Origin: a virus
Length of the DNA: 27,754 nucleotides
Virus record (IMG/VR): IMGVR_UViG_3300025112_000142
Location: 1 to 27,754 of that record
Direction: 5' to 3' (one strand)
The notes under the pieces were generated by a model. The model searched no databases. It saw only the letters and a program-made list of their open reading frames with translations, and was not told the DNA's origin. Position 1 is the stretch's first letter. Each line of letters starts with the position of its first letter. Position numbers and translations under genes: made by a program. Below are positions 7,050 through 20,665 of the stretch, piece by piece.

Positions 7050-8198
7050 ATGTGGTTTACCAACATCACCATTTACCAGCTCCACAACGCCCCAGCGATC
7101 GACAGCATAACGCTGCATGAAACGCTGCAAGCAGAAGCCGCCAAGCCGTTAGGCAATACCGATGCCAAGCGCCACGGCTGGACACCCCCAGCAGGCCGCG
7201 CCAGCAACGCCTATCTGCACGAAAGCCAAGGCCACCGCCTGCTCAGCATGCTCAAACAGCAACGCATGCTGCCACCCAAAGTGGTGAAAGCAGCGGTAGA
7301 GGAAAAGGCAGCGGAGGTCGAAGCCAACGAAGGCCGCAAGGTCACGCGCAAAGAAAAAACCGCCTTCAAAGAACAGATCACCGAGGAGCTGCTACCCCGC
7401 GCCTTTATCGATAGCATCAAAATCGACGCATGGTGGGACGTAGAAAAAAACCGCATCATCATCAACAGCGGCAGCCGCGCCCGCTGCGAAGAGCTGTTAG
7501 ACCTGCTACGCGCAACCCTCGGCAGCCTCAAAGCCACCCCGCTCAGCACCCAAACGCTACCCATCCGCGCCATGACCACCTGGGTAAGCGACGCCCAAAG
7601 CCGACCCGCCAACCTGCAGCTAGGCGACAAAGCCACGCTCAAAGCCAAAGGCGACGACGGCAAAATAGCCGCCACGCAAGTGGATCTCGACAGCGACGAA
7701 ATACAGCAGCTACTCGAAAGCGGGCGGCAAGCCACCAACCTCGCCATCACCATCGATGACCGCGTCAGCGGCGTACTCACCGACACCCTACAGCTCAAAA
7801 GCCTGCGCTTTAGCGACCAGCTGATCGAGCAAGCCGACCACGCCGACGATGTCGACGACGCCATCGCCCGGCTGGAAAGCGACTTTTTCCTCATGGCCCA
7901 CGCCCTAAGCGACACGCTGGACAGCCTCATTCACATGCTGGGCGGTGAAACCCAGCGCAGCGAAACCGGCACCCGCCCCGACGACAGCCACCCCGGCGAA
8001 CAGATCGGCAGCTTCGAAGAAACCGACCCGCTACTGAAAGAAGCCATCGCGCTGGTAAAACGAACCGCAAACGGCAAACCCACCGTCAACACTCTGCAGC
8101 GGGCTCTAAAAATCGGCTACAACCGCGCCACACGACTACAAGGGCTGCTCATGGAACAAGGACACATTGCCAACCCCTACGGGCAGCCCACCCCATGA
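7050..8198 (+). CDS. rdgC: RdgC fused to an FtsK-gamma DNA-reading domain
   Basis: 382 residues. The first 300 or so are RdgC, a toroidal double-strand DNA-binding protein that restrains RecA: MWFTNITIYQL start, LPRAFIDSIKIDAWWD, LPIRAMTTW, IDDRVSGVLTDTLQLKSLRFSD. After an acidic linker (about 295-325) comes a winged helix from residue 326 that matches FtsK gamma: DPLLKEAIALV, LQRALKIGYNRATRL, MEQGHIANPYG, including the YNRAxR motif that contacts KOPS sequences. E. coli RdgC is about 300 residues with no such tail. The fusion could load RdgC at KOPS-like or phage-specific sites. It sits behind an 8-bp box array and is followed by a coupled zinc-ribbon gene. Confidence 0.88.
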   Translation: MWFTNITIYQLHNAPAIDSITLHETLQAEAAKPLGNTDAKRHGWTPPAGRASNAYLHESQGHRLLSMLKQQRMLPPKVVKAAVEEKAAEVEANEGRKVTRKEKTAFKEQITEELLPRAFIDSIKIDAWWDVEKNRIIINSGSRARCEELLDLLRATLGSLKATPLSTQTLPIRAMTTWVSDAQSRPANLQLGDKATLKAKGDDGKIAATQVDLDSDEIQQLLESGRQATNLAITIDDRVSGVLTDTLQLKSLRFSDQLIEQADHADDVDDAIARLESDFFLMAHALSDTLDSLIHMLGGETQRSETGTRPDDSHPGEQIGSFEETDPLLKEAIALVKRTANGKPTVNTLQRALKIGYNRATRLQGLLMEQGHIANPYGQPTP

Positions 8199-9164: not shown

Positions 9165-9321
9165 GCTATTTTTGTGCCCGCGTGATGCACTATGGCGGGC
9201 CGTGCGTGGGGCGCTTCGGCGCGCCGGGTTTCCAATGTCCCCGGTCTGCTAACCCGCGTACGGTTCGCCTCCATCGTTTAGCAGCGGTAGGCGAACTCCA
9301 ACAGACTTGGAGAATCGCAAC
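9165..9321 (+). ncRNA. C4-antisense-RNA-like leader of the antirepressor gene
   Basis: A GC-rich, structured leader between the repeat gene and the antirepressor. It has the hallmark block CACTATGGCGGGCCGTGCG, a UUCG-capped hairpin and CCGGG/CCCGG pairing, similar to leaders upstream of ash/ant genes in enterobacterial prophages and to the P1/P4 C4 RNA. Two mutually exclusive pairings are visible: CTGCTAA (9246-9252) with TTAGCAG (9278-9284), and GTTCGCCT (9263-9270) with AGGCGAAC (9289-9296), the latter close to the ribosome site GGAG. In P1/P4 the C4 RNA is cotranscribed with ant and shuts off its expression. Assignment is from memory of the motif. Confidence 0.55.
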
Positions 9322-10104
9322 ATGAAAACACCCACCATTTCAGTTTCTGGCGTTACCCTTCCCTATATCGAGTATCAGCAGCAGCCTGTTGTCACTTTTG
9401 CCATGATCGACGGCGTACATTCAAAGTCTAAAGCAACAGCACGGCGCTCTTTTCAGCGCAACAAAAAGCATTTTATTGAGGGTGAAGACTTCTATGCCCT
9501 TGATTCTGAAAGGTTGGGACAAATTGTCACTACCTATCCTGACCTGTTTCCGGCGGCTACTACACGCCTAACGCTCTTCACCGAAACCGGCTACCTCATG
9601 CTGGTCAAATCGTTTACCGACGACCTCGCTTGGCAAGTGCAGCGCCAGCTCGTCAAAAGCTATTTCCGCGTAAAAGGGGCGATGCAGCCCACCGCCGCCG
9701 AGCCCATCCCCACGCCCATCGACCACCGCCAGCGCGAACAGCTCACCAACGCGGCTAACGCCGTGTTTCGCAATTTCCACGGCATGCGCCAAAGCGCCAC
9801 CGGCTGGTTTTACAACGGCGTGCGAACCGACTACTGCCTAAAACGCATCGAAGATTTAAGCCAGGACGACTTCCCGGCAGTCATGGAACGCCTGCAAGCC
9901 CTACGCCCCAAGGTGCGCCAATACGAAGATTTTAGGTATGACTTTCAACAGTCGTTTTTAAAAGAGGTCGTAGGCGAAGGCCAGCCGTACACGGCATGGA
10001 TCAGCAAGCTCGCCGGTGGCCAACACCACATCGGCCAACGCCCCAACTGGAAAGCCATCGCCAAGCAAGTGCTAATCCACAACGGCCTACTCACCAAACA
10101 GTAA
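9322..10104 (+). CDS. ORF6N-domain phage antirepressor
   Basis: 260 residues. The N-terminal 110 match the ORF6N/Rha-type DNA-binding domain of phage antirepressors: VVTFAMIDGVHSKSKATARR, FIEGEDFYAL, LFTETGYLMLVKSFTDDLAW, VQRQLVKSYFRV. The C-terminal part (about 140-260) is a helical effector region with QRPNWKAIAKQVLIHNGL. It should relieve CI repression, which matters here because CI lacks the self-cleavage dyad. It follows a C4-like leader RNA, as Ant does in P1 and P4. The start at 9322 follows GGAG. Confidence 0.85.
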   Translation: MKTPTISVSGVTLPYIEYQQQPVVTFAMIDGVHSKSKATARRSFQRNKKHFIEGEDFYALDSERLGQIVTTYPDLFPAATTRLTLFTETGYLMLVKSFTDDLAWQVQRQLVKSYFRVKGAMQPTAAEPIPTPIDHRQREQLTNAANAVFRNFHGMRQSATGWFYNGVRTDYCLKRIEDLSQDDFPAVMERLQALRPKVRQYEDFRYDFQQSFLKEVVGEGQPYTAWISKLAGGQHHIGQRPNWKAIAKQVLIHNGLLTKQ

Positions 10105-12060: not shown

Positions 12061-12116
12061 AGCGTTATTGCGCGCTAGCGTTATTTCACGCTGTAACGCC
12101 AGCACGCAAAAACGCA
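12061..12116. repeat. 8-bp box array 7 (seven units), parA leader, proximal
   Basis: AGCGTTAT, TGCGCGCT, AGCGTTAT, TTCACGCT, GTAACGCC, AGCACGCA, AAAACGCA, in unbroken octamer register. Longest array in the window and directly upstream of the partition operon, so it is the best centromere/operator candidate (compare the parFG operator of TP228, which also repeats on an 8-bp spacing). Confidence 0.85.
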
Positions 12117-12139
12117 ACGTTAGCCAAGGGGAAACACCA

Positions 12140-12784
12140 ATGGGATACAAGATTGCCTTCGTGAGCCAAAAGGGCGGCGTCAGCAAAAGCACCCTAAGCC
12201 GGGCGCTGGGCACCACCTACGCCGCCGCTGGCTGGAATGTAAAAATAGCGGATCTCGACATTAACCAATCCACCTCTTTCACCTGGTTACAGCGCCGCCT
12301 CAAAAGCGGCGTAACGCCAGAGGTGGCCGTAGAGACGTTCGGCACGGTGGCCAGCGCTCTAAAGGTGGCCGACACCTACGACCTAATGATTTTCGACGGT
12401 GCGCCCCACGCCACCAAAGCCACCGCCGAAGTGGCCCGGCTTGCGGATCTCGTCGTTCTACCCACCGCGTTAAGCGTTGACGACCTTGAACCCACCGTAA
12501 GGCTGGCCAACACACTCACCGGCCAAGAAGGCGTGCCCATTGAGCGTATCGCCATCGCGCTGAGCAAAGTGGGCAAGAGTAAAACGCAGCTGCAGGATGC
12601 CCGCGCCTACCTCAGCCACACGCCCTATTTTGTACTCGATGGCCAAGTACCCGAGCGCGACGCGTTTGTATTAGCCCAAGATAAAGGGCTGTCGATTGTT
12701 GAAACCCCATTCAAAGGCCCGAAGGCCCAAGCGGATGAACTGATACAAAACATCATCAACCGCTTTGAATCGCTTGTTAATTAA
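12140..12784 (+). CDS. parA: ParF-type ParA partition ATPase
   Basis: 214 residues, the size of short class Ib ParA proteins. Residues 11-18 are the deviant Walker A KGGVSKST (a Ser replaces the usual second Gly); Walker A' is ADLDINQST and Walker B-like DLMIFDGAP follows at about residues 85-93. It would form a dynamic ATPase layer on the nucleoid that moves plasmid copies apart with the ParG-like protein. The ATG at 12140 has AAGGGG 8 bases upstream; an upstream ATG at 12068 would read through the box array and has no ribosome site. It is followed by array 8 and the RHH gene. Confidence 0.88.
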   Translation: MGYKIAFVSQKGGVSKSTLSRALGTTYAAAGWNVKIADLDINQSTSFTWLQRRLKSGVTPEVAVETFGTVASALKVADTYDLMIFDGAPHATKATAEVARLADLVVLPTALSVDDLEPTVRLANTLTGQEGVPIERIAIALSKVGKSKTQLQDARAYLSHTPYFVLDGQVPERDAFVLAQDKGLSIVETPFKGPKAQADELIQNIINRFESLVN

Positions 12785-14825: not shown

Positions 14826-15240
14826 ATGTCGCGGTAGCGACATGCAAGCCGCCCACTGAACTATAAGTAGCAATTATAGCAGCGCGGCGAACGGGCGTTA
14901 GCCCGCCCAGCTATGCGGCACCCCCTCGCCACTGCCAAACGGGGTGTTGGGGTTTAGCGGGGTCCAGGGGTGCAACCCCTGGGACAACCAGCCCGGTAGG
15001 GCTGGGCGTCAGTGTAGAGCGGTTCTGCGCTTGCGCAGGCATTTAAAGCCCTTGACCTTGTGCTCTTAAGAGAGTTTCCGCGCTTGCGCGGGCATTGTGG
15101 ATAAACCCCGCGCTAGTGGGGGTTAGCTGAACCTATTTAATTACATAAGAAGAGCATATTAACGGTGTACAGCTAATTTATTGCCATATCACCTAACTTT
15201 TATTTCAAATCACTTAATTTTACATCTTCAAAGGGGAATC
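14826..15240. other. Candidate replication origin: hairpin cluster, DnaA box, AT-rich tract
   Basis: No convincing gene between 14798 and 15414. Six inverted repeats occur in 266 bp: ATGTCGC/GCGACAT (14826-14843), CTATAA/TTATAG (14861-14879), CCAGGGGT/ACCCCTGG (14964-14982), CCAGCCC/GGGCTGG (14988-15005), CTGCGC/GCGCAG (15025-15038) and CCGCGC/GCGCGG (15078-15091). A perfect DnaA box (TTATCCACA on the minus strand, 15096-15104) follows, then an AT-rich tract (about 15125-15235). Placement downstream of the rep gene matches the IncFII oriR arrangement. An open frame at 15181-15438 on the plus strand has no ribosome site and was not called. Confidence 0.55.
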
Positions 15241-15414: not shown

Positions 15415-16380
15415 CTAGTGTCGTCGCTGCCGGTCTAACCACTCTTCATACGGCGGGTATTTGATGCGTACCAGCTTGTTAACCTCGGCATAGCTGGCAC
15501 CGGGGTTATTCGTCACTATCTCGGCAAAATACGCGGCGGCTTCGCGGTTATAGCGCCGCTGCAGCTCTTTCTCGTCGTTAACGTCCGGCAGATCCGCTTT
15601 ACCTCGGCGCTGCTTCTGCATCGCCTTGGGGCCGCTGCCTGCCATCGCCAAGCGGCGTCGGGCTTCGGCGGCGTCGTGTGCCTTGGGGTACTGTTCGCGG
15701 TATTTGCGGCGGGCCTTCTTAATGCGGTTGCTGCACCAGTCGCGGAACTCCTTAAACTTCTGGTAGCCCACACGCCCCAGCGCCAGCAGAAAATCGGGGT
15801 TGAGCAGCTTCACGGCAGGCCGCGCTCGCTTCGTGCCGTCGGCTTTCACTTCATGCTGCAAATGCACAGTAAACGCGCCCGCCAGCTTTAAGCGCCGGAA
15901 GGCCCGCCAAAAGCGTTGGCTGGGCTCCGGGGCGTCGGGGGTGCTGCCGGGGGCCAGCAGGCCCGCCACGCGGGCAATTTCCGCACAGCTGCGATGTTTA
16001 AAACCACCATCCGCTAGCGGGGTGCCCACGCGCAGGCTGGCGAACTCGGTAAACTGGATAATCGCAGAAAGCACCAGCGACTCAGCGGCGCGGGCCTCAG
16101 ATCGGTTACAACGGGGGTTGCCGTCAGCGTTGGCCTTGCCGTTCAAATTCGCCAGCGTGGGCAATAGGCCGGGGCTGGTGTAGTAGGCTTTGGCACCGTC
16201 TACCAGCGCTTGCAGTGTGGCGGGTAGCCGCCCCTTTTTAACGGGCTGGCAATAGCGCTCAAACTCGCCTTTAGCGGGGTTATGCCCGCACCGGTTACCG
16301 GTGCCCCACCACTTGCCGTGGTGTTCGTATGGCACGCGCCCCCACGTGAGGGGCTGCGCGTTCTCTGCTGCAGCATCCAT
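15415..16380 (-). CDS. repA: IncFII-type RepA-like replication initiator
   Basis: 321 residues. The middle has the layout of IncFII/IncB-type RepA proteins: a helical SLVLSAIIQFTEFASLRVG, a winged-helix-like HRSCAEIARVAGLL followed by RFWRAFRRLKLAGAFTVHLQ, then LNPDFLLALGRVGYQKFKEF and a very basic helix RIKKARRKYREQ. It would start replication at the origin that lies downstream. The N-terminus (WGRVPYEHHGKWWGTGNRCG) has Cys/His but I do not recognise it. ATG at 16380 chosen; the ribosome site is weak (GAG), consistent with leader-controlled translation. Expression is probably limited by the antisense RNA at 16437-16517 and by a CI operator on its promoter. Confidence 0.55.
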   Translation of the reverse strand: MDAAAENAQPLTWGRVPYEHHGKWWGTGNRCGHNPAKGEFERYCQPVKKGRLPATLQALVDGAKAYYTSPGLLPTLANLNGKANADGNPRCNRSEARAAESLVLSAIIQFTEFASLRVGTPLADGGFKHRSCAEIARVAGLLAPGSTPDAPEPSQRFWRAFRRLKLAGAFTVHLQHEVKADGTKRARPAVKLLNPDFLLALGRVGYQKFKEFRDWCSNRIKKARRKYREQYPKAHDAAEARRRLAMAGSGPKAMQKQRRGKADLPDVNDEKELQRRYNREAAAYFAEIVTNNPGASYAEVNKLVRIKYPPYEEWLDRQRRH

Positions 16381-16436
16381 TTGCAAAATCTCGCTTGAGA
16401 CTTGCCCGCGCCTTGTGCAGCAGTTAAACTCTGAGG

Positions 16437-16517
16437 AGTCGGTTTTGTGCCCCAGCCTTTAAGGTTTGCTGCCCAAAACATCCGAGAAGCCCCAGCGCCA
16501 ACTGGGGCTTTTCTTTT
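16437..16517 (+). ncRNA. CopA/RNAI-like antisense RNA against the rep leader
   Basis: Plus-strand promoter -35 TTGCCC (16402-16407), 17 bp, -10 TAAACT (16425-16430), predicted start near 16437. It ends at a hairpin AAGCCCCAG-CGCCAA-CTGGGGCTT (16487-16510) with T-rich tail. The loop CGCCAA in the antisense and TTGGCG in the rep mRNA is the loop pair known from IncFII/IncB/IncI antisense control. About 80 nt, the size of RNAI/CopA. Antisense to the leader of repA, 107-137 bases upstream of its start. No CGCCAA copy is seen upstream of repA, so IncB-type pseudoknot activation is not supported. Confidence 0.6.
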
Positions 16518-16601
16518 GGGTGTCTATCTAGTTAATTTGTATGTCTTTTTTGCCTTCCAACCAACGCCGTCCGGCGGTGGTCATCAACTCACTGTTTGCC
16601 A

Positions 16602-16642
16602 ATCCTAGCATCCCAAAAGCGTTTTGACACGAACTGTGTTAA
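16602..16642 (-). promoter_or_regulatory. Predicted rep promoter under a CI operator
   Basis: Minus strand: -35 GTGTCA (16625-16630), 17 bp, extended -10 TGC-TAGGAT (-10 at 16602-16607). Operator TTGACAC-GAACT-GTGTTAA (16624-16642) overlaps the -35 box. Bound CI should block rep transcription; start near 16595 gives a leader of about 215 nt carrying the CopA target. Confidence 0.55.
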
Positions 16643-16685
16643 AAAAATTTTTCTCAAAACGCTCCGGGCCTGAGTGAATGCGGGG

Positions 16686-16898
16686 CTAGTGGGGGCCGTG
16701 CTTGCCCGCGCGCTGCAGCTCATGCCCCAGCGCATCGCGCACCATCGCTAGAATCATGTGATTGCCCGCGTGCGGCTCTTCGCCAGTCACCTGCATAAAT
16801 TCCATCATCACATCAATGTTTTGCAGCGTATCGCGCTGGTTAATGCCCACCAGTACGTTAGTGTTATATCGCTGCGTCGTTCCCTGCTGCTCGCTCAT
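16686..16898 (-). CDS. Small protein upstream of rep
   Basis: 70 residues starting MSEQQGTTQRYNTNVLVG with a predicted amphipathic helix (LQNIDVMMEFMQ) and a His/Lys-rich end. GGGAGG lies 8 bases before the ATG, a strong site. Its position upstream of rep is like copB/repA2 in IncFII plasmids, so a copy-number regulator is a guess from context only; I see no helix-turn-helix. Confidence 0.6.
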   Translation of the reverse strand: MSEQQGTTQRYNTNVLVGINQRDTLQNIDVMMEFMQVTGEEPHAGNHMILAMVRDALGHELQRAGKHGPH

Positions 16899-17264: not shown

Positions 17265-17900
17265 TCAATCCCACTCAGTCGACCAGTCCAGCGTAAGCGG
17301 ATCAGTCCCCGCCGCTACCGCGTCAACGTGCTGCCCTTCCAGCTCGATCAGCGCGGCGCGGCGTTGGCCGATTTGGCGTAGCGCGGTTTCTACATCCGAT
17401 ACCGGGTGCTGGGCGTGGTGTTTGCCTGCGCTGTCTTTCCAGCTCGCAAACGTGGTCATGCCTGCGTCAGCGGCGGCGGTGAGCGCTTCTTGCATTGCTT
17501 GCCGATTGTCCGCGCTGCCGTCGTAATGTACGCCGTTGAGGGTGACGCCAAGAGCCTCAGCGGCCTTGCGCTGGGCCTTTACCTGCGGCTCCACCTGGGC
17601 GCGGTGGTAGTCGAGCAATTTAGCGGCATCGAAAAACGCGGTGTCGTCGCTTTCAGTTGTGCCGTGCTGCACGTAAACGGCTGCGTCATGGGTGCTCAGG
17701 CCTGCATCTTTAATCGCGTCTAGCCGCTGTTGCTGCTCTGGCGTTAGCGTTAACGGCTCTATCTGCAAATCAGACAAATGCCCGTGCTGGGCAATTAGTT
17801 GCTCAAAGTAGCGGCGGTCGTCTGCGTAGTGTGTGCGCTCAACATCGTTATCGTAAAAGCGTACTTTGTACTGCTTGGGGGTCATATCGTCGCGTAGCAT
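17265..17900 (-). CDS. Tail-fibre-associated protein with DUF4376-like C-terminus
   Basis: 211 residues. The N-terminus (MTPKQYKVRFYDNDVERTHY) resembles short phage tail proteins; the C-terminal 100 residues have the DUF4376 pattern seen in tail-fibre assembly or tail-fibre-linked proteins: LGVTLNGVHYDGSADNRQAM, LTAAADAG, WKDSAGKHH, VSDVETALRQIGQRR, LIELEGQHVDAV. The start at 17900 has GAGG 6 bases upstream and overlaps the 3' end of the reverse transcriptase. It is the last gene of the tail/DGR operon and may help fold or attach the variable tail protein. Confidence 0.65.
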   Translation of the reverse strand: MLRDDMTPKQYKVRFYDNDVERTHYADDRRYFEQLIAQHGHLSDLQIEPLTLTPEQQQRLDAIKDAGLSTHDAAVYVQHGTTESDDTAFFDAAKLLDYHRAQVEPQVKAQRKAAEALGVTLNGVHYDGSADNRQAMQEALTAAADAGMTTFASWKDSAGKHHAQHPVSDVETALRQIGQRRAALIELEGQHVDAVAAGTDPLTLDWSTEWD

Positions 17901-18940
17901 AGTGGCCTCACGTGGAAACGTTGGTTGGTGAAATATATGTAGCGGGTGCGCTGGCAGGCGGTGGTAATGAATCGCTCGCACTCTGCGAGCTGGGCATAGC
18001 TGTACCAGCTGTTAAGCGACTGCAGCGCCTCGTTGGGCGTTAAGCGAAACGCGTGCAGCAGCCGATCAAACGCGCCTAGGCGCTTAATGATCCGGGATTT
18101 AGCTTTAGAGGTTAGCGTGATGCGTGCCGGGGTGATGCGATACCCCAGCGCTTCCAGCCCTTGCTGCGGGCGCAGTGGGCGGATAAAGCATTTGCGGTCT
18201 GGAAAAGTCAGGCGTATTACGTCGCGCCCAAAGGCGCGGACAGCCGCCAGCACATCGCCCGCATGGGCTTTGCCGTCAACGATCATTATGAGATCGTCGG
18301 CATAGCGCACGTAATGCCGCACGCCAAGCCGTCGCTTTATATGCTGATCAATTTCGTTCATTAGCACATTGGCTAACAGTTGAGACGTTAAATTACCCAG
18401 CGGCAAGCCAATATCATTAGGCGAGCTATCGATAATCTTGTCTAAGAGCGCAAGCGTTTTAGCGCAAGTTATCTTTTTCCTTATAATGCCTTTAACAACA
18501 TCGTGATTAATGCTGTAAAAGAACTTTTGAACGTCGGCCTTTATAATCCAGGGGTCGGCGTAATGTCTTGACGCGCTGCGCATGTGCCGCTGAACTTGCC
18601 TTACCGCTTTATGATTGCCTTTGTTTCTTATGCAGGCGTAGCTGTCGTGTATAAACTTGGGCTCGTAAAAATCGCGAAGCGTTTCGTTAATGGCATGCTG
18701 AACAATCTTGTCTCGATACCTGGGGGCATATATCACGCGCTCTTTAGGCTCAAACACCACGAACTCTTCGTAATCTTCGGGCGTGTAATGGCCGGAGGCT
18801 ACTTCACGCCTTAGCCTCTCCAGGTTTTCTGTTTCGTTGGCAGCAAAGCGTATAGCGGCGGCTTTGAATTTCGGGCTAGCGGTTTGGGTTTTGCGGTACG
18901 CGGCGTAAAAATTGGCTTCTGAAACAATGCGCTTAAACAT
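17882..18940 (-). CDS. DGR reverse transcriptase
   Basis: 352 residues. Group-II-like reverse transcriptase with the features of the DGR clade: ERVIYAPRYRDKIVQHAI (motifs 1-2), KADVQKFF with catalytic Asp (about residue 136), IGLPLGNLTSQLLANVLMNE (about 177-196; the GNLTSQ form is characteristic of DGR enzymes) and HYVRYADDLI with the YADD catalytic box (about 213-216). No maturase or endonuclease domain, and a length normal for DGRs. It copies the template-repeat RNA with adenine mutagenesis and delivers the cDNA to the variable repeat. ATG at 18940 chosen because AAGG lies at good distance; an ATG six bases upstream is too close to it. A terminator lies between template repeat and this gene. 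Confidence 0.95.
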   Translation of the reverse strand: MFKRIVSEANFYAAYRKTQTASPKFKAAAIRFAANETENLERLRREVASGHYTPEDYEEFVVFEPKERVIYAPRYRDKIVQHAINETLRDFYEPKFIHDSYACIRNKGNHKAVRQVQRHMRSASRHYADPWIIKADVQKFFYSINHDVVKGIIRKKITCAKTLALLDKIIDSSPNDIGLPLGNLTSQLLANVLMNEIDQHIKRRLGVRHYVRYADDLIMIVDGKAHAGDVLAAVRAFGRDVIRLTFPDRKCFIRPLRPQQGLEALGYRITPARITLTSKAKSRIIKRLGAFDRLLHAFRLTPNEALQSLNSWYSYAQLAECERFITTACQRTRYIYFTNQRFHVRPLCYATI

Positions 18941-18950
18941 TGCCATCCTT

Positions 18951-18988
18951 AAAAAAAGCGAGGGCGCTAATACGATGAGTAGCGCCCT
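18951..18988 (-). terminator. Terminator/attenuator between the template repeat and the RT gene
   Basis: Minus strand: AGGGCGCTA/TAGCGCCCT stem (18980-18988 and 18961-18969), 10-nt loop, then CGC and seven U (18951-18957). It ends 11 bases before the RT start and would give a TR-containing RNA distinct from RT mRNA. Confidence 0.85.
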
Positions 18989-19107
18989 CTTACGGTTTTC
19001 TGCCGAATGAACTTAATCACTGGCAGCAGACAAACACCCCCTTGCAGTGTGTTAAACACCAACATCATCTCTTGCAAGCCGTAACCGACAAGATGGAAAA
19101 ACAGCAG

Positions 19108-19206
19108 GGCGGGCCGCCAACCGATATTGCTATTCGCATTCGACGCGGTATTGCGATCGAAGTTCGCCAAGTCGTCATTGCCACGGTTAGCGCGATTGGA
19201 GGAGTT
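19108..19206 (-). repeat. DGR template repeat (TR)
   Basis: 99 bp, aligned without gaps to the variable repeat at 19640-19738 (constant offset 532). 24 adenines in the sense strand; 11 of them differ in VR and none of the other positions do. The sense strand carries nine Asn codons (AAC/AAT), the classical design that yields many amino acids by A mutagenesis. Its 3' side is the GC-rich GGTTGGCGGCCCGCC. The TR 5' end overlaps the stop codon of the accessory gene. Confidence 0.97.
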
Positions 19207-19564
19207 ACGGCGCTTGCCTGGGCCTGCTAGCAGACTTCATAAATCCTACCAGAATTTTCTTAAGCTCGGTAATTTTTAGATCAATCTGGGAAAAGAACCC
19301 GGCGCTGATATAGCGCTCGTTCCTGCTGAGTCGAAAAAGCGTCACTAAATTATTCATATAAGCTGCCGCCTCTTGAAGCGCCGTCTTGCGTTTACTGGGC
19401 ACCATTTTAGCCAACCCTAGCCGCTCTAACAGATTTACAAAGCAGCCCTTAATATGCGCACAAAGCGCGAACTTTTCGGACTTAGGGTAGTTTTTAAACG
19501 CTGGGTAGACCTGGAAAAATAGCGCTTCTGCTTTCGCATAAAGAATGAGGCTATCACGTTCCAC
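19205..19564 (-). CDS. avd: DGR accessory variability determinant (Avd)
   Basis: 119 residues, basic, four-helix-bundle type: ERDSLILYAKAEALFFQVYP, FALCAHIKGCFVNLLERLGLA (region), TALQEAAAYMNNLVTLFRLSR and FSQIDLKITELKKILVGFMK. This is the Avd family, which forms a barrel that binds the reverse transcriptase and TR RNA. Start chosen at GTG 19562-19564 (AAGGA 8 bases upstream); a longer frame would begin with TTG inside a hairpin. The stop overlaps the TR. It lies between the variable gene and RT, the usual DGR order. Confidence 0.85.
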   Translation of the reverse strand: MERDSLILYAKAEALFFQVYPAFKNYPKSEKFALCAHIKGCFVNLLERLGLAKMVPSKRKTALQEAAAYMNNLVTLFRLSRNERYISAGFFSQIDLKITELKKILVGFMKSASRPRQAP

Positions 19565-19588
19565 TGTGCTTATCCTTACGCTACACGT

Positions 19589-19614
19589 GCGGGTCAAGCC
19601 CGCCCGCTTCGCGG
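19589..19614 (-). other. Hairpins just downstream of VR
   Basis: In sense orientation, CCGC-GAA-GCGG (19614-19604) and GCGGG-CTTGA-CCCGC (19603-19589) follow the target stop codon by 2-12 bases. DGRs such as BPP-1 need a hairpin/cruciform shortly after VR with a GA-rich loop for efficient retrohoming. The first hairpin, 26 bases from VR with a GAA loop, fits that role; its short stem makes this tentative. Confidence 0.55.
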
Positions 19615-19615
19615 A

Positions 19616-20665
19616 TTAGTTATTAGGGATTAGTTCCAAGGCGGGCCGCCAACCGAGACCGCTATTCGCAGTCGACGCGGTAGTGCGAACGAAGTACGCC
19701 AAGTCGTCAGAGCCACGGTAAGCGCGAGTGGAGGAGTTTGCGTCACTCGCCTCTTGCGTCCAGCAGGCGCGGCCATTGCCGCTGATATTCAGCTCAGCAT
19801 TGCTGAAGCCTGCCCAGTTCGCTCCCACCTGGGGGCCGCCGTGGCGGTCGAGTCGCATGCCATCAGTGCCGTCATCGGTCGGCACACCGGTATGCACGCG
19901 GTACATCAGCTCGTTCCACTCTGAACCGCCGCCGATATTCATCTGAGGCATGTCATCGGTAAAAAATAGCGGATCTGATTCGGGGAACGGATCAGCGCCA
20001 GCCCCGGTTAGTAGCCGCACGATAAAGCGGTTGCCGCCGTGCTCTACCGTCGTATATTGATTCGTGGGCGTGCCGCGTGGGCTCTTGCCGTCGTCGTTCG
20101 TGCCGTACACGATGCCGCGTGCATACAAATGATCCCAGCTCACGGTGTGCATAAACGACTGTTTTGCCACAAACAACACTTTGCCGTGGCGCGCGAATTT
20201 CAGCCAGCCCGCGCTGCTGTTTTGCAGCACGCCTTCGGTGACGCCCAGCTCAAACGCCAAACGGTCACCGGAATAAAACTCCCCCGCCGACACTTCGCCG
20301 AAGTAGCCAGCACTCATGTCGCCCGCGATCAGTTCTTGCGGCCCTGGGCCGTAGGCCAGCACGGCGCTGCCTGCGTTGCTGCCCACGTAGTAGACCGACA
20401 CAAACAGCTGCAAGCCGCTGCCGCTGGCAATGAACTGGTCGCCCGCTTCTAAATTAAAGCTCTTTTCAAGCGCCACTTCGTCCGCTACGGCTTTGCTGCT
20501 GAACACGGTGTGGGTGGTGTTCGCTGCCGCGTTGAAATACTTGAGCGTTAGATTGCCGCTGCCGGTGCATAAAATGCTGTGCGCGGTGGCTTCCGTGCCC
20601 TGCGGTACTGTGAAAATCGTTTGATCACTACCCGTGAGGGCTTTTGCGTGTGTGCGTAAGGCCAT
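19616..20665 (-). CDS. DGR variable tail protein (C-type-lectin-like target)
   Basis: 349 residues. The N-terminal 105 are a beta-rich region (FTVPQGTEATAHSILCTGSG, LYVSVYYVG-like strands); residues 115-349 look like a C-type-lectin/formylglycine-enzyme-like fold: GWLKFARHGKVLFVAKQSF, FIVRLLTG, SEWNELMYRVH, ACWTQEASD, and the end GWRPALELI, typical of DGR targets. The last 33 codons or so are the variable repeat. As a receptor-facing tail protein it would let the phage change host binding. AGGAAA precedes the ATG. It is the last tail gene before the DGR machinery. Confidence 0.9.
   Translation of the reverse strand: MALRTHAKALTGSDQTIFTVPQGTEATAHSILCTGSGNLTLKYFNAAANTTHTVFSSKAVADEVALEKSFNLEAGDQFIASGSGLQLFVSVYYVGSNAGSAVLAYGPGPQELIAGDMSAGYFGEVSAGEFYSGDRLAFELGVTEGVLQNSSAGWLKFARHGKVLFVAKQSFMHTVSWDHLYARGIVYGTNDDGKSPRGTPTNQYTTVEHGGNRFIVRLLTGAGADPFPESDPLFFTDDMPQMNIGGGSEWNELMYRVHTGVPTDDGTDGMRLDRHGGPQVGANWAGFSNAELNISGNGRACWTQEASDANSSTRAYRGSDDLAYFVRTTASTANSGLGWRPALELIPNN
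19640..19738 (-). repeat. DGR variable repeat (VR)
   Basis: 99 bp at the 3' end of the target gene. Compared with TR: 11 substitutions, all at TR adenines (sense), at plus positions 19657, 19659, 19660, 19671, 19683, 19689, 19696, 19710, 19711, 19720 and 19728. Nine codons change: Asn to Thr, Tyr, Ser, Tyr, Thr, Thr and Gly, Asp to Val, and Ile to Leu. The 3' GC-rich end matches TR; beyond it the sequences part, so this side acts as the mutagenic homing start site. Confidence 0.97.

Follow-up and report, generated by a model that had tools for sequence, protein, structure and literature searches.

In plasmid R1, the recognition loop lies in the 3' terminator hairpin of the antisense RNA CopA, and a leader frame, repA and a DnaA box follow. 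The REx-C modules of Pseudomonas replicons, which comprise RepA-PFP, RepJ, RepA-RA2 and RepA-Pa, are a second point of reference: a few base changes in their putative antisense stem-loop overcame incompatibility, chimeras argue against a pseudoknot and some of the modules are without a leader peptide (PMC5304414). Our literature search found no direct report of antisense control in phage-plasmids, which is not proof of absence. Here we describe a locus from a virus record of 27,754 nucleotides (the whole stretch is referred to as the window) that very likely encodes the copy-number switch of a phage-plasmid, in which an antisense RNA would kiss a loop in the rep leader and block a leader frame, with no pseudoknot involved.

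Carrier and replicon

The window is most likely derived from a Halomonas-type phage-plasmid with an IncFII-like replicon layout, since the relatives of its Rep are plasmid initiators and a DnaA box lies downstream. A circular 45,853-bp plasmid of Halomonas qaidamensis encodes a Rep that is 89% identical, together with terminase, portal, holin, integrase and ParA; circularity is known from this relative, the window itself being a 27.7-kb virus record that carries a ParA gene (12068-12784) as well as rep. Strain XH36 of H. qaidamensis holds the related plasmid NZ_CP080628.1. The rep gene is on the minus strand (15415-16380) and starts at ATG 16380, with TTG 16386 as a possible start (323 codons from 16386). 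Relatives were found by tblastn in 168 plasmid records, chiefly from Pseudomonas and Aeromonas, many of them annotated as plasmid replication protein RepA, and by this kinship the rep product is a plasmid initiator. The first-pass annotation had proposed a plasmid ancestry for the replicon, which the relatives on Aeromonas, Pseudomonas and Delftia plasmids bear out.

The window Rep has no direct match to a Pfam or NCBIfam family. In the window-rep family, 7 of 31 members match the NCBIfam model RepA_IncFII_LM (NF040977) at an E value of 0.01 or better (best 5.6e-7); the two matches that were scored fall below the curated cut-off, and the window Rep is not among the matching members. Judged by its family, Rep is a remote relative of IncFII/IncL-M RepA, and homology to ColIb-P9 RepZ was not detected (hhalign probability <1%). 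The AlphaFold model of Rep (pLDDT 80.7) has no useful PDB match and no significant match to a solved initiator fold, and its one strong match among viral models is an unnamed protein.

The only perfect DnaA box in the window (TTATCCACA, 15096-15104, minus strand) lies approximately 310 nt past the rep stop and adjoins an AT-rich stretch (approximately 15130-15230), the two together forming a candidate origin. A DnaA box is found at the same place in three related loci (L001, L008 and L012) and 81-190 nt after rep in other relatives, which amounts to 18 of 47 loci in all. Beside the box, we observe two 28-nt direct repeats (86%) with GCGCTTGCGC-type palindromes (15016-15096), which are perhaps part of the origin.

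Elsewhere in the window, a C4 antisense RNA (9188-9275, plus strand; Rfam RF01695, 66.7 bits) lies just upstream of an antirepressor-like gene with an ORF6N domain (9307-10104), so that this phage-plasmid would have a second layer of antisense RNA control. A gene on the plus strand (7050-8198) encodes an RdgC-like protein whose C-terminus carries an FtsK gamma domain. A diversity-generating retroelement (17882-20665) consists of a reverse transcriptase (17882-18946, minus strand), an accessory four-helix gene (19205-19597, minus strand), a template repeat (19105-19206) and a variable repeat (19637-19738) within the target gene (19616-20665), with 11 of the 12 differences between the repeats being changes of a template A to another base.

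Predicted antisense RNA opposite the rep leader

Across from the leader of rep, the window carries an antisense promoter (16402-16430, plus strand), with the -35 element TTGCCC (16402-16407), a 17-nt spacer and the -10 element TAAACT (16425-16430). A hairpin that would serve both as terminator and for recognition follows 53 nt past TAAACT (16484-16513, plus strand): its sequence is GAGAAGCCCCAG-CGCCAA-CTGGGGCTTTTC, with a 12-bp stem (16484-16495/16502-16513), the loop CGCCAA (16496-16501) and then TTTT as the U tract; read on the mRNA strand, the loop of this hairpin is UUGGCG. The predicted antisense RNA measures approximately 80 nt (16437-16518, plus strand), a length set by the conserved -10 element and the U tract with a putative start at about 16437; its 5' part is complementary to leader stem-loop 2, and its 3' part is the recognition and terminator hairpin. 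By these predictions, the RNA has a promoter and a terminator of its own, encoded antisense to the rep leader, as a CopA-like mechanism requires. The first-pass annotation had placed the promoter, the hairpin and the CGCCAA loop within 16402-16517 and had likened the loop to that of IncFII/IncB/IncI plasmids; the positions hold, and the loop pair is that of IncI/IncB plasmids.

The terminator scan detects the hairpin, with 4 terminator-like sites in 1 kb against 1.4 expected in shuffles, and the promoter scan misses the antisense promoter, which has only 8 of 12 consensus bases. Since this promoter is weak and the hexamer CGCCAA occurs in the window at chance (35 observed versus 34.6 expected), a single sequence is insufficient, and the case for the hairpin and the antisense promoter, as for the loop variation and the absent pseudoknot partner, rests on comparison among related loci.

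We scanned the 450 nt that precede rep in loci drawn from collections of plasmids, phages, viral contigs and genomes; in the genome scan for rep relatives, a single-protein query found nothing and an alignment query did. In the leaders of rep relatives, a strong hairpin comes after an A-rich tract and usually lies 110-210 nt ahead of rep, and the loci bearing it come from Halomonas, Kushneria, Aeromonas, Pseudomonas, Delftia and others. Two Aeromonas phages, Ahp2 (L027) and AhyVDH1 (L028), have a rep homologue and no antisense-type hairpin within 450 nt upstream.

Pairs in the hairpin were counted with the loop as anchor, because a MAFFT alignment of the hairpins broke register. Across 25 distinct stems, 94% of pairs are kept and two-sided changes are seen at 12 of 12 pair positions, compared with 38-65% when the partner was slid by one or two bases and 64% in the best of 500 shuffles. 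Most mismatches within the stem are A.C when read on the mRNA and hence G.U on the antisense strand (12 versus 2, P = 0.013). The hairpin also folds more stably on the antisense strand in 34 of 36, which suggests that folding and termination are required of this strand. Furthermore, a TTGC-N17 antisense promoter is present at the matching place in 34 of 38 hairpin-bearing loci, and in 3.1% of shuffled leaders. These loci are related rather than independent, so that a P value for this contrast should not be read literally, although Rep identity among them falls below 35%. The -10 element of this antisense promoter is of the TAAACT, TACACT or CATAAT type, and the 17 spacer bases vary. Three loci have another -35 element at the same 17-nt spacing (TTGAAC in L021, TTGAAA in L024 and TTGATA in L025), and one hairpin-bearing locus (L018) has no antisense promoter at the matching place. 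The antisense RNAs predicted in relatives are 77-106 nt long. For the window-like group, folding of leader segments places the 5' end of the antisense RNA in the loop of the second leader stem-loop. Stem covariation and promoter conservation both uphold the first-pass proposal of a CopA-like antisense RNA; its description as an unusual layer in a phage does not hold within this group, in which many related phage-plasmid contigs carry the RNA.

Leader elements and proposed mechanism

The probable promoter of the rep mRNA (16602-16630, minus strand), assigned by consensus match only, has the -35 element GTGTCA (16625-16630), a 17-nt spacer and the -10 element TAGGAT (16602-16607); GTGTCA or GTGGCA followed by TAGGAT is kept in Halomonas relatives despite different surrounding sequence. 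An inverted repeat, AGCGTTTTGA...TCAAAACGCT (16618-16663), overlaps the -35 region and is perhaps an operator. Upstream of rep lies a small conserved ORF (16689-16898, minus strand), which is 70% identical in L001, 30% in L002 and weaker in L006, and which matches the upstream position that copB occupies in IncFII replicons such as R1.

With respect to the leader itself, folding of the window and of relative leaders gives a stem-loop 2 (16422-16475, minus strand), CUGGGG-CACAAAACCGA-CUCCUCAG within GCAGC/GCUGC arms, whose loop lies opposite the antisense RNA's 5' end. A further hairpin, GCAAGUCUC-AAGC-GAGAUUUUGC (16382-16405, minus strand), immediately precedes the rep start; it is kept in L001, recurs with a changed loop in L010, is seen in several leaders and may hide the ribosome site of rep. 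A possible leader reading frame (16200-16481, minus strand) begins with ATG 16481 directly past the recognition hairpin and overlaps rep in another frame. This frame varies among relatives, those in Halomonas included: in L009 and L012, the ATG that follows the hairpin shares the reading frame of rep, in the window it does not, no leader frame with ATG, GTG or TTG reaches rep in L002 and L006, and the frame is clear in L014/L049 and the RA2-like group. The frame from ATG 16481 is a plausible leader frame with a putative function.

We infer a mechanism from this layout. An antisense RNA of approximately 80 nt would be made from the TTGCCC/TAAACT promoter and end at its own hairpin; its loop CGCCAA would kiss UUGGCG, the loop of the counterpart hairpin in the leader of the rep mRNA, and pairing would then spread. 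The duplex would cover the sequence just past the hairpin, including the start of the leader frame, and keep ribosomes out of the leader, in which case the hairpin before the rep start would stay closed and little Rep would be made. More plasmid copies would give more antisense RNA and less Rep, a negative feedback on copy number, and plasmids sharing the same loop would be incompatible.

The least secure step is the block on leader translation, because the leader frame is not constant among relatives. The same lack of conservation would suit a direct action on rep without a leader peptide, through attenuation, RNase III cleavage or a closed ribosome site, as would the RepJ replicon, in which most of the repI leader gene was deleted with no visible effect on replication (PMC5304414). 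Against such direct action, which we consider rather unlikely, the mRNA strand has no terminator between the recognition hairpin and rep apart from a weak 5-pair stem, and the antisense RNA stops approximately 57 nt before the rep start, which it leaves uncovered.

Absence of a pseudoknot partner

Control of the IncI/IncB type, in which translation would be activated by a pseudoknot between the mRNA loop UUGGCG and a complementary stretch ahead of rep, with the antisense RNA as competitor, would explain why the loop sequence is the same as in ColIb-P9, and the window loop can indeed pair with GGCGCGGGCA 32 nt before rep (-11.2 kcal/mol). This pairing, however, is reached by 12.5% of shuffles and is not common to L001 or to other loop types. 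In the ColIb-P9 control, the partner UCCGCCA forms 7 contiguous pairs, whereas the best exact loop complement before rep in the window is 4 nt. The first-pass annotation had found no second CGCCAA with which a pseudoknot could form, and there is indeed none nearby on the mRNA strand; exact CGCCAA is absent in ColIb-P9 too, as its partner is UCCGCCA. Across leaders with several loop types, the longest exact loop complements are 4-5 nt and lie at scattered places. Loop duplex energies stay inside those of shuffles in all 26 leaders, a single-sequence test of limited power given that even the ColIb-P9 control is reached by 4.5% of shuffles, and the argument is therefore based on the lack of a shared or covarying partner across loop types rather than on these energies.

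The Rfam models agree on this point. The covariance search proposed in the first-pass annotation as a check did not recover the RNA, with CopA (RF00042), PK-repZ and PK-repBA showing no match up to an E value of 10 in 16300-16700. The ColIb-P9 control gave 194.5 bits for PK-repZ, far above the gathering score, and 38.2 bits for CopA, with CopA and PK-repBA just below their gathering scores. Matches of suhB, BjrC68 and ctRNA_p42d in the window are generic, terminator-like and below gathering scores, and were set aside. With neither a loop complement nor an Rfam match, the window RNA is, by sequence comparison, outside the pseudoknot-controlled replicons of the IncI/IncB/IncL-M kind (RF01087 and RF01089), and we regard IncI/IncB-type control as highly improbable. 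The reading as a CopA-like RNA without a pseudoknot is preferred because there is no covarying partner here, whereas the ColIb-P9 control shows one.

Loop variation and compatibility

The mRNA loop UUGGCG is found in Halomonas and Aeromonas phage-plasmids and several Pseudomonas loci, its complement CGCCAA in L006, L047, L049 and the Kushneria locus L057, and CUGCAA, CGGCAA, CUGGCA, CUGGUAA and CUACCAA in other relatives. The loop sequence is thus not diagnostic, contrary to the weight that had been placed on it, since CUGCAA, CGGCAA, CUGGCA, CUGGUAA and CGCCAA occur in relatives of the same architecture. The simplest reading is that the window-rep family uses a handful of loops, that the UUGGCG/CGCCAA pair is one of them and that it is not evidence of IncI descent. 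The UUGGCG motif also recurs in a different hairpin, as the second leader stem-loop of the RA2-like group (L016, L020, L062 and L064) has UUGGCGG in its loop.

Close pairs of loci differ preferentially in the loop. A Delftia plasmid (L014) and a viral contig (L049) are identical over approximately 225 nt (190 nt before the rep start and approximately 35 nt after it) except for two adjacent loop bases. Between L040 and L041, 5 of 6 loop bases differ versus 13% elsewhere (P = 3e-4), and between L006 and L059 all 6 of 6 differ versus 52/276 (19%) elsewhere (P = 6e-5). The variable loop within constant stems in these alignments fits the pattern expected of an incompatibility determinant. A plain terminator between rep and the upstream small ORF, with a loop match due to chance, would account for a hairpin with a U tract and for the chance frequency of the hexamer in the window, but it can practically be dismissed, as it would lead one to expect neither a conserved antisense promoter, nor a loop that varies while the stems stay constant, nor a position ahead of rep that is the same from genus to genus.

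We tentatively suggest, as something that is possible though less than even, that phage-plasmids use the loop as a compatibility code that switches rapidly. If so, a two-base change (CUGCAA to CGCCAA) or a complement loop would let a near-identical phage-plasmid coexist with its relative, and a loop switch would let a phage-plasmid enter a cell that already holds that relative. Nature supplies pairs whose sole difference lies in the recognition loop, which makes phage-plasmid incompatibility testable by two-base swaps, and superinfection exclusion between phage-plasmids is perhaps testable likewise. More generally, a CopA-like antisense RNA that falls outside the Rfam families very probably controls prophage copy number in phage-plasmids of Halomonas, Kushneria, Aeromonas, Pseudomonas and Delftia.

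Comparison with known systems

CopA/CopT of the IncFII plasmids R1/R100 (RF00042) resembles the window in having the recognition loop in the 3' terminator hairpin, followed by a leader frame and then repA, and in the DnaA box after repA, as after the window rep. The window differs in having no match to the CopA model, a shorter and simple stem, no detectable tap homologue and a remote Rep. The Inc RNA/repYZ system of IncI1 ColIb-P9 and the RNAI of IncB and IncL/M share with it the UUGGCG/CGCCAA loop pair and an antisense promoter downstream of the hairpin, and ColIb-P9 has a DnaA box 167 nt past the repZ stop; here, in contrast, there is no pseudoknot partner or Rfam match, and Rep is not detectably related to RepZ. 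The window thus adds a case in which the loop pair known from pseudoknot-controlled IncI plasmids occurs with no pseudoknot.

The switch in the window appears nearest to the REx-C control modules. Both have a stem-loop that ends a putative antisense RNA, an antisense promoter near the rep start and a variable loop in otherwise constant stem-loops with no pseudoknot; the short overlapping leader frame of the modules has a possible counterpart in the window, and the Rep family of the window also takes in the RepA/RepB plasmid Drgb7 (L017) and pP27494_2 (L005). Unlike REx-C, the window group is found in phage-plasmids, its variable loop sits in the terminator hairpin itself, its Rep is of a different branch and its leader peptide is not clearly conserved. 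As far as sequence can tell, it is comparatively well supported that the window RNA belongs with the replication-control antisense RNAs already known and, among these, with the CopA/REx-C kind that has no pseudoknot.
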